Shown piece by piece: positions 2,641 to 41,543 of a stretch of 64,000 bases of DNA. This stretch comes from Artemia franciscana (taxonomy: Eukaryota; Arthropoda; Branchiopoda; Anostraca; Artemiidae). The stretch covers positions 21,999,558 to 22,063,557 of the forward strand of contig NC_088873.1 in assembly GCF_032884065.1 (NCBI RefSeq), given 5' to 3'. Made by a program: the position numbers and the translations under genes. The number at the start of each line of letters is the position of its first letter. Position 1 is the first letter of the stretch. The notes beneath the pieces are model-generated. The model did no database searches. It saw only the letters and a list, made by a program, of their open reading frames with translations, and was not told the origin of the DNA.

Positions 2641-3510
2641 ATGTTGTTTGTTTTTGTGTAATGTTATTGTTGATTTTTGCTTGTGTTTACTCCACTATTT
2701 ATATTTTTATGTAAGTGGGTTATAAATCAATATATATTTCTCAAATTTAGGGGAAAAGCCTTAGTATGGTTGAAAATCTTGCTGAAATAACAGAAAATGT
2801 GTTTACAAGATTGGGCAATAACTGGGCACTAAAAAAAGAGACTAGAAATTAAAAATTTAGCTAGCTTAAGCATTTTTTTCGAAATTCAGATATACATAGG
2901 AAAGGATAGATATAGTAGCTTAATAAGACCTTTCCGGAGGGTAATTTTGGCCCTGGATTCATTCCTGAAAGTTAAATTTGCCTTACTCGGCTACTTTCTA
3001 AGATAGCAAGAAGACTCTTAACTAGAATCATCTAAATTTTTTCCAATGTGAAACATTAATAATTAATATTTTACTAGGCTAATTCGAAATTCATTTTAAC
3101 AATTCAATTTTGATCAAATAAAAACTCAAATTTTGTCAAGCGGAAGCGTTATACCAAACAGGTTTAAATTTTCATGTTGATAAAATGTTCAAACCTGGGA
3201 TTAAGGTCTTCTTTACTTGTAGATTTAGGCAGAGAGCTGTTGCTACAAGTACTGAACTGTGAATAGAGCGCTAATACTAGCAGAACAATGACGTAGCAGA
3301 TTAGGAAAAGTATAGTTTGTAGGAAGATTTTTTATAATTCTATTTTATCTTGAAATTTTTAGTAAAGTGCAAAAAAGACTGTTGCGTAAAACAGATATTT
3401 AGATTAAATGAGTAATTTTTTTGGCTTGCAAGTTTCAATTTTATCTATTTGCAAGCTTGAATTCAATCGAAGTTGATGTTGTCTAAAGATCTAGATTTAG
3501 CTGACTTTAC
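2641..3510. other. Non-coding spacer with a dispersed-repeat fragment
   Basis: No open frame of note. Around 2925-3035 the sequence resembles the arms of the large inverted repeat at 26.4-28.5 kb: it shares a run around 'cctgaaagtt' and then 'tagcaagaag...ctagaat'. The segment therefore carries a diverged third copy of that repeat. The rest is AT-rich and featureless to me. Confidence 0.45.
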
Positions 3511-4077
3511 GTGATAATGAAAAATAATCAACTTTTAAGTAAAATGAATAGCGGCTCAACTAATACTGAGAATGATGACTTCTCAGTCATCATTAGACAT
3601 AGCCCATTAGATAGTCAACCCAATGATGACAATGATGTAAGCGATCTAGAAATATCACCATTTTGTTCAGACAGACAGTCAACAAATTCTATCTCTGTGT
3701 GGCACTTTTATCGTCGGAGTGTTCAAGAAAAACAGTCGACGGTCGCAGTAGCTGAAACATACCGTGAGCAAGATCATCGGTCAGAAACTATGGCAGGGAA
3801 AACTTTTACAATTCCATATTCTCTGGATGATACATCGTCAAAACTAGAATCTCTGAAAAGTCCTAATCCACTTCAAATTTATCATTCCTATTCTGTACAA
3901 GAAGCAGAAGAACTTGCTAAGTTGCCCATGTTCCAGCCCACTGTAAGATTGACTCGCTGCACAGGCAATCTAAGAGATAATGCTTTACGTTTAAAAACCA
4001 CTAAGGGGACAACAGAAAGGAAAGTAAACAAGAAACCAAGGCGACAACAAAAAGGAAAAAAAAAACAAGGAAAATAA
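3511..4077 (+). CDS. Uncharacterised 188-residue protein, parent of the adjacent tandem array
   Basis: This is an uninterrupted ORF with two possible starts (ATG at 3511 and 3544); I do not recognise the family. The N-terminal half is rich in Ser, Asn and Asp. A middle part reads KTFTIPYSLDDTSSKLESL. The C-terminal third contains YSVQEAEELAKLPMFQP and NLRDNALRLK, then a very basic tail (KVNKKPRRQQKGKKKQGK). The 3' part from about 3860 is the first unit of the tandem array that continues to 7450. Later units keep recognisable pieces of the same peptide but are broken by stops and frameshifts. It could be an exon of a host gene, a captured gene fragment, or a relic ORF of an unrecognised repeat. 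Confidence 0.45.
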   Translation: MIMKNNQLLSKMNSGSTNTENDDFSVIIRHSPLDSQPNDDNDVSDLEISPFCSDRQSTNSISVWHFYRRSVQEKQSTVAVAETYREQDHRSETMAGKTFTIPYSLDDTSSKLESLKSPNPLQIYHSYSVQEAEELAKLPMFQPTVRLTRCTGNLRDNALRLKTTKGTTERKVNKKPRRQQKGKKKQGK

Positions 4078-5612
4078 AATAAAGCACATTGCGTCAAAAC
4101 TGACATAACGTTAAAAGTCCGATAGAGCTTCAAATTTATGATTTCTCTTCTGTGCAAGAAGCAAAAGAGCTTGCTAACGTTCTTATGTTCCAGCCCATTG
4201 CAAGATTAACTCGCTACATAGGCAATCTAAGAGATAATAATTTAAGTTTAAAATAAACTAACTCGACAATAGAAAGGAAAGTAAACAGGAAAAATAACAT
4301 AAAGGACATTGCGTCATAACTGTTGCAATGCAGAAAGTCTGAGTCCGCTTCAAATTTATGATCAAATCTTACGAATTATGACCAAATTAAGAGCTTGCTA
4401 AGTTGCCCATGTTTCAACGCGTTGTAGGAGTAACTCGCTACATAGGCATTCTAAGAGATAATGCTTTACGTTTAAAACCCACTAACTCGATAACGAAAGA
4501 GAAAGTAAACAAGAAAAATAACATAAAGCATATTGCGTCATAACTGACGCAATATGCTTCACGTTTAAAACCCACTAACTCTACAACAAAAAGGAAAGTA
4601 AACAAGAAAAATAACATAAAGCCCATTGCGTCATAACCGAAGCAAAGTGAAAAGTCCGAGACCGCTTCAAATTTATGATCAAATCTTATGAATTATGTTC
4701 AAATTAAGAGCTTGCTAAGTTGTCCATGTTCCAACCCATGGTAAGATTAATTCGCTGTATAGGCAATCTAAGAGATAATGCTTTATATTGAAAACCCACT
4801 AAGTCGACAAAAAAAGGAAAGTAAACAAGAAAAATAACGCAGACGTATTGCGTAAAAAGTGACTCGCTACACGTGCAACCTAAGAGATAATGCTTTACGC
4901 TTAAAACCCACTAACGCGATAACAAAAAACAGTAAACAAGAAGAATAACATTAAGTACAATGCATCCAAACTAGAATCTTCGAAAAGTCCGAGTCCGCTT
5001 CAAATTTATGATTTCTATTCTGTGCAAGAAGCAAAAGAGCTTGTTAAGCCTATATTTCAGCCCATTGTAAGATTAAATGCTACACAGGCAATCTAAGAGA
5101 TAATTCTTTACGTTTAAAACCCACTAAATCGACAACAAAAGGAAAGTAAACAAGAAAAATAACACAAAGCACATTACGTCAAAACTGACGCAATGTGAGA
5201 AAAGTTCCAAGACTGCTTCAAATTCATGATTTCTATTCTGTGCACGAAGCAAAAGATCATGCGAACTTGCTCATGTCCCAGCCGATTGTAAGATTAACTC
5301 ATATCAAGGTACAACTTAAATGCTTCTAACTTAGCATTATTTTGTCTTTTTTTTTGTACTCTTTCCAAAGGTTCCTGCTTCCTTTTTATTGACTTTAGAA
5401 CTCCAGATGTTAATCAGGGAGCTACAGGTTTTGATCTTTTTAATCGAGGAATTTCTAAAGGAGCTTTCAGACAATAAGACGTGAATTTTTCCTTAGCAGT
5501 GTCATAAAACCTGCCAAATGTGTCGTTATAATTGCTTAAACTAATATTTTCTGGTAAACAAAAGTCCCATGAATACGTACCAAGATCTTCTTTCAATCTA
5601 TCGAGCTCCACT

Positions 5613-5762
5613 TGTTTTTTTTTTTTGTATTGTATCGGATTAACGACGCTTCTTGACTACTAAGGTCCCTGCGTCGGCCCTGCAGTGCATTCCTGCAGTA
5701 TGATTCGATCTCTAGGTCCCATATTACCATGCTAAGGTCAAACCCACTGCGAAACCACAGGA
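5613..5762 (-). mobile_element. tRNA-derived SINE, copy 1, with 15-bp target-site duplication
   Basis: A 150-bp insert is flanked by a perfect 15-bp direct repeat CTATCGAGCTCCACT at 5598-5612 and 5763-5777. Read on the minus strand it begins with an A-box-like 'tttcgcagtggg', then a B-box-like 'agagatcgaatc'. It ends in 'gatacaatac' plus a run of A, the typical 3' end of a retroposed SINE. It matches a second copy at 29093-29233 over nearly its whole length. It lies inside the LINE endonuclease relic, so it is younger than that LINE. Confidence 0.9.
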
Positions 5763-6244
5763 CTATCGAGCTCCACTGATGAGCAACAGAATCTCGGTTT
5801 ATCCGGGGGGACTAATCTTTGTGGATTTTGGAGGATCGGAAACAGGGCTTTAACTGGCAAATGGTCGGAAGTATCAGAAAACAGTACTCCATTCTTAATG
5901 GAGTGCAGCGATGAAAAATTATTGTCAATTAATGTTCCTGGCTGATTTTAAATCCTTGTTGGTATGTTTATACAAGGAGCCAATCCGTACGAAATTAGTA
6001 AAGACAAGAGATTGGAAGCCTGCCTAGATGACGCTTTCGTAAGGTCAAGGTTAAAGTCGCCCATCGTTACAACTTCATATTTTTCAGCACAAACTTCCTA
6101 AGAGCGTCTTCTAATGTGTCAAGAAATTCAGTCGTAGATCCGGTTGGAGAACGATATACTTCGCCAATTATTATCCTTTCCTTAGCGTCATTTGAGATTT
6201 CAATAAATAGTGACTCAAATACCTTTTCATTATTTATACATAAA

Positions 6245-6745
6245 TCATGTCTTAGTACGGCCTGAAATTATTATGGATGTAAAATCCGAGTCCACCTTTT
6301 TGCCCATCTTGCGGTTAATAAAAATCGACATATAACCGGGAATATCCAAAAGTACCTGATTCTTCTCATTCAAAAATGTTTCACAGAGAACGATAATTGC
6401 AGGGCAGAAATCCCTGCATAATAAGTGAATATCGTCGAACGAAGAATTTAGGCCCTGAACGTTAAGATGCACAACCGGAAATACATCGGCCCACCGAGCT
6501 CCGAAACCCCAAAATCTCAGCTCCTCCACAAACACGCTATCAATAATATTCTCAAAATTTTCGTCAAAATTCATATTGGGGGCTTTACAAACCCGGTTAT
6601 TCATAATTTCATTAAAATTAACTATCCTAAATTCATTATCATTTAATCTCCCTAATGTTATGTTAGCGTTAATCCCCAACGGAGAATCAATCTCAACCAT
6701 AATTACTTGCCGAAACAGGTGACCAAGAGTCATTTTGCATTCGCG
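6245..6745 (-). pseudogene. LINE endonuclease N-terminal fragment
   Basis: This is the open part of the endonuclease relic. The continuous frame extends right to 6796, but its first residues read through a flanking array unit in reverse, so the LINE part begins near 6745. The motif LNVQGL followed 30-40 residues later by LCETFL marks the first catalytic blocks of APE-type LINE endonucleases. The frame shifts near 6250, after KMGKKVDSDF. It is not a host gene. Confidence 0.7.
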
Positions 6746-7455
6746 TTTGTCCGAGTCCACTTCAAATTTATGATTTCTTTTCTGTGCAAGAAGCAAAAGA
6801 GCTTGCTAAGTAGCCCATGTTCCAGCCCGTTGTAAGATTAACTCACTACATAACCAATCTAAGAGATAATGCATTACGTTTAAATCCTACTAACTCGACA
6901 ACAAAAGGAAAAGTAAACAACAACAAAAACATAAAGCAAATTGCGTCGAAACTAACGCAATGTGAAAAGTCTGAGACAGCTTCAAATTATTGATCAAATC
7001 TTATGAATTACGTTTTGACGCAATGTGAAGAGTCTGAGACGGCTTCAAATTTATGGCTCCTATTCTATGCAAGAAGCAAAAGAGCTTGCTAACTTGCCCA
7101 TGTTCTAGCCCATTGTAACATTAACTCGCTATACAGGCAATCTAAGAGATAACGCTTTACGATCAAAACCCACTAACTCGACAACAAAAAGGAAAGTAAA
7201 CAAGAAAAATAACAAAGCACGTTGCGTCCAAACAAGAATCTTTGAAAAGTCCGAGTCGGCTTCAAAATTATTATTCCTATTCTGTGTAGGAAGCAGAAGA
7301 GCTTGCTAAGTTGCCAATGTTCCAGTCTATTGTAAGGTTAACCCGCTACGTGAGTAATCTAAAGGACGCTGCTTTGTGTTTGAAACTCACAAACAGGCGA
7401 CAAAAAGAAATGTTAACAAGAAAAACAACATAAAGCACATTGCAGTGAATTGCCA

Positions 7456-39864: not shown

Positions 39865-41543
39865 CAGAGGCGCCATTTGGGCCAAATCATGGGGTGGGCA
39901 TGAACTCCATCTGGGCCCCCCCTGATTCACTTTGCGTCGCGTAAGAAAAATCCGGGTTTTGGCAGCACATTGATCGAATATTCTAAATAAAAATGCATTT
40001 TTCAGCACCCGTGTGTTGCTTGGAAATGTACTGTAACCAAATGTGGAACTCAGTCACACTGACCTCTAAGATTAATTATAACAACGAAGAATACAATCAA
40101 CGAGGTTAAGTGATTAAACTGAAAGTGGAAAATTCAACCAGACTACAGGCTGGCATTTCTCAGCGAGAAACTTTCTTATTTAAGTAAACAATACGTCGGT
40201 GAGAGTAACCTTCATTGTTATGCTGAGGGTTGTAACAAAAATCTCAGTGTCCCTTCAGCAGAAATCTTCCAGATCAAATACATTTACAAAAAGGAAAAAC
40301 ATAACAAGAAAAAAAAAAGATAACAACATTCAAGGTAACAAGGGGAACCGCCGAGGTTTCATCTTTGCAAAATCATCAACAAGCTGGTTGTAGTCCAAAT
40401 TTTTTAATAAATCCTTCTCTGCAAATATCAAAAGGAGGTGACTGAGACGATCATCTCCTGTTGAAGACCGCAGGTAGTTTTTCACAATTTCTAGGCTAGA
40501 AAACAAACGCTCATTACTCGCTGTTGTCTCAGGAAGTGTGGCAGCAATACGAAGTCCTTTAATTACTTCTGAGTAAGCCACTGGTAATGCCTGAAGATGG
40601 TCGACAATGTCTAGGAAGTTTTCCGGCTTTTTCTCCTCATTGAGCAAGAAACACTTGGCAATACCAGCTTGAGATTCGAGAAGAATGCTGTCGATATCCA
40701 GCTCGCCCTAAAGAGAAGAGAAAAGCTTGAGCAGCTCTGTGTCCATAAACTTGGTTGAGCTTGGATCCAAGGCTTCGAGCGTACTCAGCACTGGCAAGTT
40801 ATCTGTGAACCTTCTGTCAAATTCTGCTAGTAGACGGTCAAAAGTTTTGAAGTATTCTTGCTTCATTTCATCCGCCAAAGTAGTAGTCCAATTTCCAGAT
40901 TCGATGAAACTCTTTCCTAGCGTCAAAGTTGTCACAAATTGTTTCCGATGCTTGGTGATCTTTTGAATTCTTCAAGGTCGTCCTTTCTGACTAACAGAGG
41001 AGGGTCTAGTCACGGGTCCATTCACAGCAGGTACTTCAATTTCGAGTTCTGTTGCAAACTCTTTAGCCTTCTTGAAAAGCGATACAAATGAAGCATCTGA
41101 ACGCAGGTCGGTGAGTTTGCTTCTTGTGACCTGAATCAGGGTGCGCGATCGAGAAATAATCAAGTCGACGGCGACGGCATGGAGTTGCTGGGACAGCGAT
41201 TTCGTCGCTCGCGTAATTGCTTCTATGTAGTGTGATTGGAAGATAACAAGGAACGATTCCATCAAGAAATGACAGGCCAGGAACTGACCTATTTTAGGCT
41301 ATCAACTTAGAGGAAAAACTGCAAATATTCAGAATTTGTAATATTAATATTATCATCTATGAAACGGGCATTTGACAGAACTTTAGAATTAGATTACGTA
41401 TCTAACCTGCTTTCAAAGTTTACAATGGTTACTGGCAAATAGTGTTATTATTATGGCCGGCAAACGACCCTTTTTGGTGGAATCTTGGGCCCCCTGGAAA
41501 ATCTGGGCTGGGCATTTGCCCCCCCCCCCAAATGGCGCCTCTG
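39865..41543 (-). mobile_element. Decayed hAT DNA transposon, 1.68 kb, with terminal inverted repeats
   Basis: Terminal inverted repeats CAGAGGCGCCATTTGG at 39865-39880 and its complement at 41528-41543 match exactly. The flanks are AGTATTCCG (39856-39864) and AGTATTCG (41544-41551), an 8-bp target duplication apart from one extra base. The minus strand encodes the C-terminal part of a hAT transposase (40330-41265), with frameshifts. The N-terminal zinc finger and much of the catalytic domain are missing, so the element is inactive. It is the longer relative of the MITE at 33882-34196. Confidence 0.92.
40330..41265 (-). pseudogene. hAT transposase, C-terminal remnant
   Basis: Three open pieces, 41265-40972, 40935-40708 and 40647-40330, form one protein interrupted by a frameshift near 40960 and a short break near 40700. 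The last piece carries the hAT C-terminal dimerisation signature: IAATLPETTASNERLFSSL then NYLRSSTGDDRLSHLLL. The type resembles ZMYM1/52-kDa-repressor-like transposases. The upstream pieces are helical and less conserved. Confidence 0.88.

Follow-up and report, generated by a model that had tools for sequence, protein, structure and literature searches.

A tandem array with hairpins in Artemia franciscana as the probable remains of a coding repeat domain

Genes whose coding sequence contains tandem repeats can leave pseudogenes, and it is with this general class that we compare a locus in a 64,000-nucleotide stretch of the Artemia franciscana genome, hereafter the window (C11:21999558-22063557, contig NC_088873.1, from an assembly of 1.27-Gb in 6468 contigs). 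The locus consists of an open reading frame (ORF) at 3511-4077 on the forward strand and a tandem array that begins within it and reaches to 7443. As in the general class, the array units have homologues in the in-frame repeats of a relative that is still open, and they carry frameshifts and stops and show no synonymous excess; the locus differs from the class in that its units continued to spread once the frame was gone and that part of them carry a hairpin. For hairpins of this kind, two papers describe an origin by short-range inverted template switching, in which the reverse complement of a neighbouring stretch takes the place of the original sequence and an inverted repeat arises in one step (PMC8794818, PMC7954356). 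Set against those accounts, the product in our array differs in having been multiplied in tandem, and sister units, instead of a dated outgroup, serve to infer its ancestral state.

The explanation that we favour, with a probability of roughly three in four, is that the locus would be a truncated and largely pseudogenised paralogue of a gene on contig C8, and the array its former repeat domain, which lost the frame. The relative (C8:31314488-31316884) is a single intact ORF of 798 codons. Because this frame holds repeats homologous to the array units, and the C-terminus of its protein is unmatched in 105.5 kb of C11, we read the window ORF as the front of the shortened paralogue and the array as its repeat domain. 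By eye there are four clear repeats and one worn repeat in C8, each of ~80 amino acids (aa), with core and phase as in the array units (the shared phase being evident at the ...KVNKK..ASKL.. junctions), and the majority sequence of the repeats is ELVNLSMLQPVVRITRSTCNLRENALRLKPGNTITKRKVNK in C8 versus ELAKLPMFQPIVRLTRYIGNLRDNALRLKPTNSTTKRKVNK in the window. The start of the C8 protein, MEMNQLSSKMNKGSTYFEDSNFNDLI, matches that of the window ORF, MKNNQLLSKMNSGSTNTENDDFSVII, at 54% over 26 aa, and in a DNA comparison the 75 bp that span the start codon (3486-3560, forward strand) are 79% identical to C8:31314457-31314531. When the C8 protein was compared by tblastn (E up to 1) with 105.5 kb of C11 around the copies of the locus, residues 1-26 and the repeat region 230-565 were found, and the C-terminal residues 566-798 had no match there.

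The missing C-terminus is where the C8 protein resembles bZIP transcription factors: it matches the Pfam family bZIP_2 (PF07716) in two stretches at 22.6 bits against a cut-off of 22.3, a marginal likeness that passes by 0.3 bits, and its NLIAVRKYR has the N-x7-R spacing that is the rule in that class. The protein differs from those factors by a large tandem-repeat domain and the second bZIP-like stretch, and to our knowledge the joining of ~80-aa repeat units to two such stretches is an unusual architecture. The window ORF differs further in having no bZIP match in Pfam. The original prediction that it belongs to no known family thus holds for the ORF itself (its best Pfam match, Bys1 at E = 0.092, is below the cut-off, and we take it as chance), and has to be amended for the C8 relative with its marginal bZIP_2 match. 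A search of PDB sequences with the C8 protein returned no bZIP chain, the sole hits being chains of myosin IB (E 0.48 and 0.9), a relation that we likewise ascribe to chance. As a separate observation, three perfect cAMP response elements (CREs), TGACGTCA, lie ~190, 160 and 84 bp upstream of the C8 ATG, within ~115 bp (in C8:31313801-31314488); C11 has a background of 4 such sites in 105.5 kb, and at this rate the chance of finding at least three in 688 bp is p ~3e-6, by a test chosen after the sites had been seen. The arrangement suggests control by cAMP and bZIP proteins, and possibly self-regulation.

The array in the window is far above chance expectation, in that the 17-mer AATCTAAGAGATAATGC occurs 8 times at up to 3 mismatches against 0.40 expected, and 0 of 100 shuffles reach 8. 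Cut and counted by hand from the alignment, it comprises 11 units (w1-w8 before and w9-w11 after an insert of unrelated DNA at ~5301-6747) over 3829-7443, where about ten units, many 217-220 bp apart, had been proposed; the array is real, with a count of 11, 4 of them partial, and with an interruption. A whole unit is ~219 bp, and the spacings from start to start are 257, 224, 317 (= 93 + 224), 112 and 213, and past the insert 283 and 217. All the units lie on the forward strand, and their description follows from alignment, with folding for w2, w3, w5, w7, w8 and w11 and a repeat search for w8, w9 and w11. The first, w1 (3829-4085), has no hairpin and bears an imperfect internal duplication offset by ~37 bp (repeat spacing 37) that shifts the frame. 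Of hairpin type are w2 (4086-4307), which is decayed, w3 (4308-4530), which has a form longer by 4 bp, called the B variant, and w5 (4624-4843), with a decayed hairpin and the B variant. Between the last two, w4 (4531-4623) has 93 bp left after a 139-bp deletion private to the window copy, as judged from the unit alignment and from an alignment of the three copies of the locus described below. The partial w6 (4844-4956, 113 bp) lost its right hairpin arm through a 10-bp deletion, the arm being kept in a sister copy, and w7 (4957-5170) has no hairpin. The insert cuts the hairpin-type w8 (5171-5300) and has taken the 5' end of w9 (6748-6939). Past it, w10 (6940-7220) is of hairpin type and internally rearranged, consisting of pieces of 78 and 203 bp that meet at a hairpin arm, and w11 (7221-7443), the last, has no hairpin. 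The majority of w1, w2, w7, w9 and w11 is open over 73 codons, i.e. 219 bp, and reads IASKLESLKSPSPLQIYDFYSVQEAKELAKLPMFQPIVRLTRYIGNLRDNALRLKPTNSTTERKVNKKNNIKQ; the majority of all rows is 218 bp and contains stops. Rfam gave 0 matches at the gathering score and a tRNA scan gave 0, so that no RNA of a known kind was recognised.

The distribution of the unit in the genome bears on the simplest alternative, namely that the array belongs to a transposable element or satellite spread over the genome, with which the ORF overlaps by chance. Units in tandem, bearing a palindrome and broken by a transposon-like insert, are what such an element could look like. Against this, a 275-bp DNA query of the 1.27-Gb genome gave at least 23 matches, of which 22 fall in three C11 copies close to one another and 1 falls on C8, and a protein query gave at least 23, with 20 on C11 and 3 on C8, all of these counts being lower bounds. 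The genome-wide spread that was named at the outset as the sign of a satellite overlapped by chance was thus not seen, and in place of the many dispersed arrays of a satellite there are, among the matches listed, three adjacent C11 copies and C8. This alternative is largely refuted, and we regard it as barely credible. What the locus does show is homology to an intact open frame elsewhere, on C8, together with frame-disrupting changes, as in a pseudogene. For satellites derived from coding sequence, literature listings offered no close precedent, which is not proof of absence.

Among the matches listed, the block of ORF plus array is present three times on C11, as c1 (at 21962.6 kb), c2 (at 21988.3 kb) and c3, the window copy, with long pieces ~95.8-99.3% identical. 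Because of a gap of 100 N at C11:21984883-21984982, it is possible that two haplotypes were assembled side by side and that the copies are these rather than segmental duplicates. The alignment of the three copies also shows a ~460-bp deletion in c1.

The ORF is one of 16 of at least 100 aa in the 64 kb window, and this paucity of long frames, the large genome and the transposon-like fragments are in keeping with a eukaryote. It begins with GTG, has its first ATG at 3517, from which it encodes 186 aa, and its final third, from ~3829, is unit 1 of the array, just as originally described; we read it as the 5' end of a truncated paralogue plus one repeat unit. This unit is ~37 bp longer than its neighbours since a stretch with GACAACAGAAAGGAAAGTAAACAAGAAA occurs in it twice, imperfectly (~4011-4072); the length of this duplication is not a multiple of three, and the frame then runs into a stop. 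The ORF had been called intact, and its frame is indeed open, although its stop is most likely the product of this frameshift and not the original end of a gene. The run of A that precedes the stop counts 9, 8 and 10 in c1, c2 and c3, and the open frame around the match has 200, 191 and 190 codons, respectively, a variation that appears unlike a conserved C-terminus. It can nevertheless be proposed that the ORF encodes a young functional truncated protein, made of the N-terminus and one repeat without the bZIP-like part, with the array inert or serving as a 3' untranslated region. This proposal, which is compatible with the array as a former repeat domain, would account for the frame being open in all three copies and for the flank plus ORF being less diverged than the array between c2 and c3 (5/1135 versus 10/479 differences, Fisher p 0.003). 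On the other hand, the same comparison finds the 5' flank no more diverged than the ORF (2/611 versus 3/524), 4 of the 6 variable ORF sites among the three copies are nonsynonymous and 2 synonymous, few as these sites are, and the C-termini vary, so that we hold a young protein to be possible but doubtful.

Within the array, the changes away from the majority were scored over a 123-bp core. As this core is missing or cut in w4, in w8 and in the initial piece of w10, these were left out, and w6 entered with a partial core. Nine window units then show 105 changes, 32 synonymous, 70 nonsynonymous and 3 to stop, and random change would give fractions of 0.293/0.678/0.030 (chi-square p 0.79); the units vary as neutral DNA, with no synonymous excess, although the C8 repeats have a similar ratio. 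By codon position the changes among window units number 28/33/44, an excess that is not significant (p 0.15). Between window and C8 units the differences per codon position are 0.262, 0.213 and 0.362 (from pairs that are not independent), a third-position excess that looks as if the units had diverged while coding. Excluding the ORF itself, 7 of the 8 window-array matches of the protein search contain stops. The proposed coding origin and subsequent decay of the units are both supported. Moreover, several units have frame-breaking variants in common, the +1 bp of the hairpin type and the +4 bp of the B variant, mid-unit in w3, w5 and w10 and by eye also in the full unit 4 of c1 and c2. Since these variants are shared, duplication or conversion of units continued after the loss of coding, as had been anticipated.

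A tree of 13 units, namely eight window units, one c2 unit and four C8 units, puts the C11 and C8 units on opposite sides of a branch with 100/100 support, as expected if each array was homogenised separately. The same branch is an argument for the model of outward growth, which starts from a short real gene, the ORF at 3511-4077, whose last third was duplicated serially, the C8 repeats having been amplified independently from the same ancestral unit. That the ORF is open in all copies agrees with this model, and the hairpin and B variants shared among C11 units show that copying or conversion without coding did occur. The model has to contend with a unit that is multi-copy, and in the same phase, within the intact 798-codon frame of C8, with concerted evolution, which yields identical separate clades, and with an ORF whose end looks frameshifted and whose C-terminus differs among the three copies. 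We therefore consider outward growth unlikely, and the proposal that the array was made from the 3' end of the adjacent ORF probably has the direction reversed, the ORF being more likely the front of a broken repeat gene than the parent of the array.

The hairpin was thought to end each unit. By hand reading, hairpin-type sequence is present in 7 of the 11 units, two of them badly decayed (the right arm of w6 being found only in c2), is absent from three (w1, w7 and w11), and in w9 the site is lost. Folding of 13 window places gave values of -5 kcal/mol or below for 4 of them, and at four places in the C8 gene no comparable hairpin was found (-0.1 to -2.8 kcal/mol). Units w1, w7 and w11 read ...AGAATC..., near the coding sequence for SKLESL, and in hairpin units the sequence here is ...TGACGCAATGTG..., which repeats in reverse complement the CATTGCGTCA that stands before it. 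Since the form with no hairpin fits both the open frame and C8, the hairpin is probably derived, and the simplest account of its origin would be one inverted template switch.

The most perfect hairpin, which had been given as 4528-4557 and perfect over 13 bp, is indeed perfect and is larger: it spans 4526-4559, each arm being 15 bp and the loop 4 nt long, folds at -16.6 kcal/mol under DNA parameters and is the longest perfect inverted repeat in the window for loops up to 10. It sits at the junction of the 139-bp deletion, which in the three-copy alignment occurs in the window copy only. At the equivalent place c1 has a 9-bp stem and c2 identical letters, followed by the 139 bp missing from the window; the new junction, GACGCAAT/ATGCTTC, extends the right arm, and one differing base in the left arm completes the pairing. 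The perfect palindrome therefore postdates the split of the window copy from c1 and c2 and cannot have built the array. An older, shorter hairpin might have helped the array to grow. Our hand list of seven structural events (the 37-bp duplication of w1, the 139-bp deletion of w4, the shortening and the 10-bp deletion of w6, the join of w10, the ~460-bp deletion of c1 and the insert) has 4 of 7 breakpoints in or next to a hairpin, which is not significant (binomial p 0.08 at an assumed chance of 0.26 each) and is only suggestive of an excess. With three of the 11 units devoid of it besides, we do not accept the hairpin as the driver of duplication.

In weighing the reading of the locus as a broken paralogue, several findings have to be counted on the other side. 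The frame of the ORF is open in every one of the three copies. The N-terminal match to C8 is weak, covering only 26 aa at E 0.05-0.07 per copy (0.057 for the window), and residues 27-229 of the C8 protein, like its C-terminus, were unmatched in the 105.5 kb of C11. When the four C8 repeats are scored in the same way as the array units, they give 11 synonymous, 24 nonsynonymous and 0 stop changes of 35, again with no synonymous excess; given this similar ratio, the neutral ratio of the array does not separate it from C8, and the case for C8 as a working gene consists solely of 798 codons free of stops and frameshifts and of the marginal match to bZIP_2. The 100/100 branch makes independent growth of both arrays from one ancestral unit possible. 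A period of exactly 219 bp, or any multiple of three, is something we infer for the ancestor, and the hand-cut majority of 221 bp is not in frame head to tail. As for the hairpin, the units that lack it (w1, w7 and w11) cluster with 87/89 support within the C11 side, which taken by itself would also agree with a hairpin present from the start and lost once, the five scored hairpin units require two changes on the tree, and a single early gain followed by a single later loss is possible. An intermediate, or another parent gene, may also exist.

Taking the locus as a truncated paralogue of the C8 gene, the following course of events can be envisioned. A partial copy would have lost its C-terminus, and the ~37-bp imperfect duplication in unit 1 would have shifted the frame. 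Unequal exchange may then have kept duplicating or converting units, whereby the frame-breaking variants became shared, and inverted template switching in one unit could have created the hairpin, which spread with the copies. A later deletion in the window copy presumably brought together a hairpin arm and downstream sequence, which gave the 15-bp perfect hairpin. The array suggests a stepwise route from a coding repeat domain to a satellite-like array, and also that an array can acquire a hairpin once its coding stage is over, the hairpin then not being its cause; the three near-identical copies put at least two events in order, namely the deletion of 139 bp and the disappearance of one hairpin arm. 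The case thus looks like an instructive, fairly ordinary broken gene copy.

A far bolder interpretation starts from TTGCGTCA, of which the window has 8 exact copies, 7 of them in the array, where they are not independent, having come from a single unit. The motif resembles a composite C/EBP-CRE site for bZIP proteins. It can be imagined that the broken repeat domain of a bZIP gene is now a regulatory element, the hairpin event having multiplied TTGCGTCA, and that the relic would bind, titrate or answer bZIP proteins, perhaps that of the C8 relative with its three upstream CREs. We think this very improbable; if it held, the wreck of a gene would, strikingly, have come to regulate its own family.

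The insert that splits the array (5301-6747, reverse strand, with approximate ends) is possibly a decayed fragment of a retrotransposon of the kind without long terminal repeats, to judge by an endonuclease-like stretch, GDFNLDL; of five insert pieces searched in Pfam, one had a match, weak, to Exo_endo_phos_2 (E 0.2; 12 bits, where the cut-off is 27.4). Within it, the 153 bp at 5612-5764 are 87.6% identical to C8:31319082-31319230 and are perhaps a dispersed short repeat. In c1 and c2 the insert is followed by a second imperfect tandem array, unrelated to the first, with periods of ~29-30, 110 and 138 (in c2 at C11:21991422-21994000 and on to at least 21994995, in c1 as a block from 21965226); self-BLAST (bits over 500) found none in the window. 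The segmentally duplicated block also includes an ORF at 294-863 that is endonuclease-like by eye (IIIGDIKTDI ... SLSDIDRM) and has no Pfam match at E 0.01. A Pfam search of ten window ORFs at E up to 0.01 gave matches for two, neither in the array: one to efThoc1, below its cut-off, and one to the hAT transposase C-terminal dimerisation domain, in an ORF at 40330-40647 on the reverse strand, with 30.4 bits against a cut-off of 21.4.

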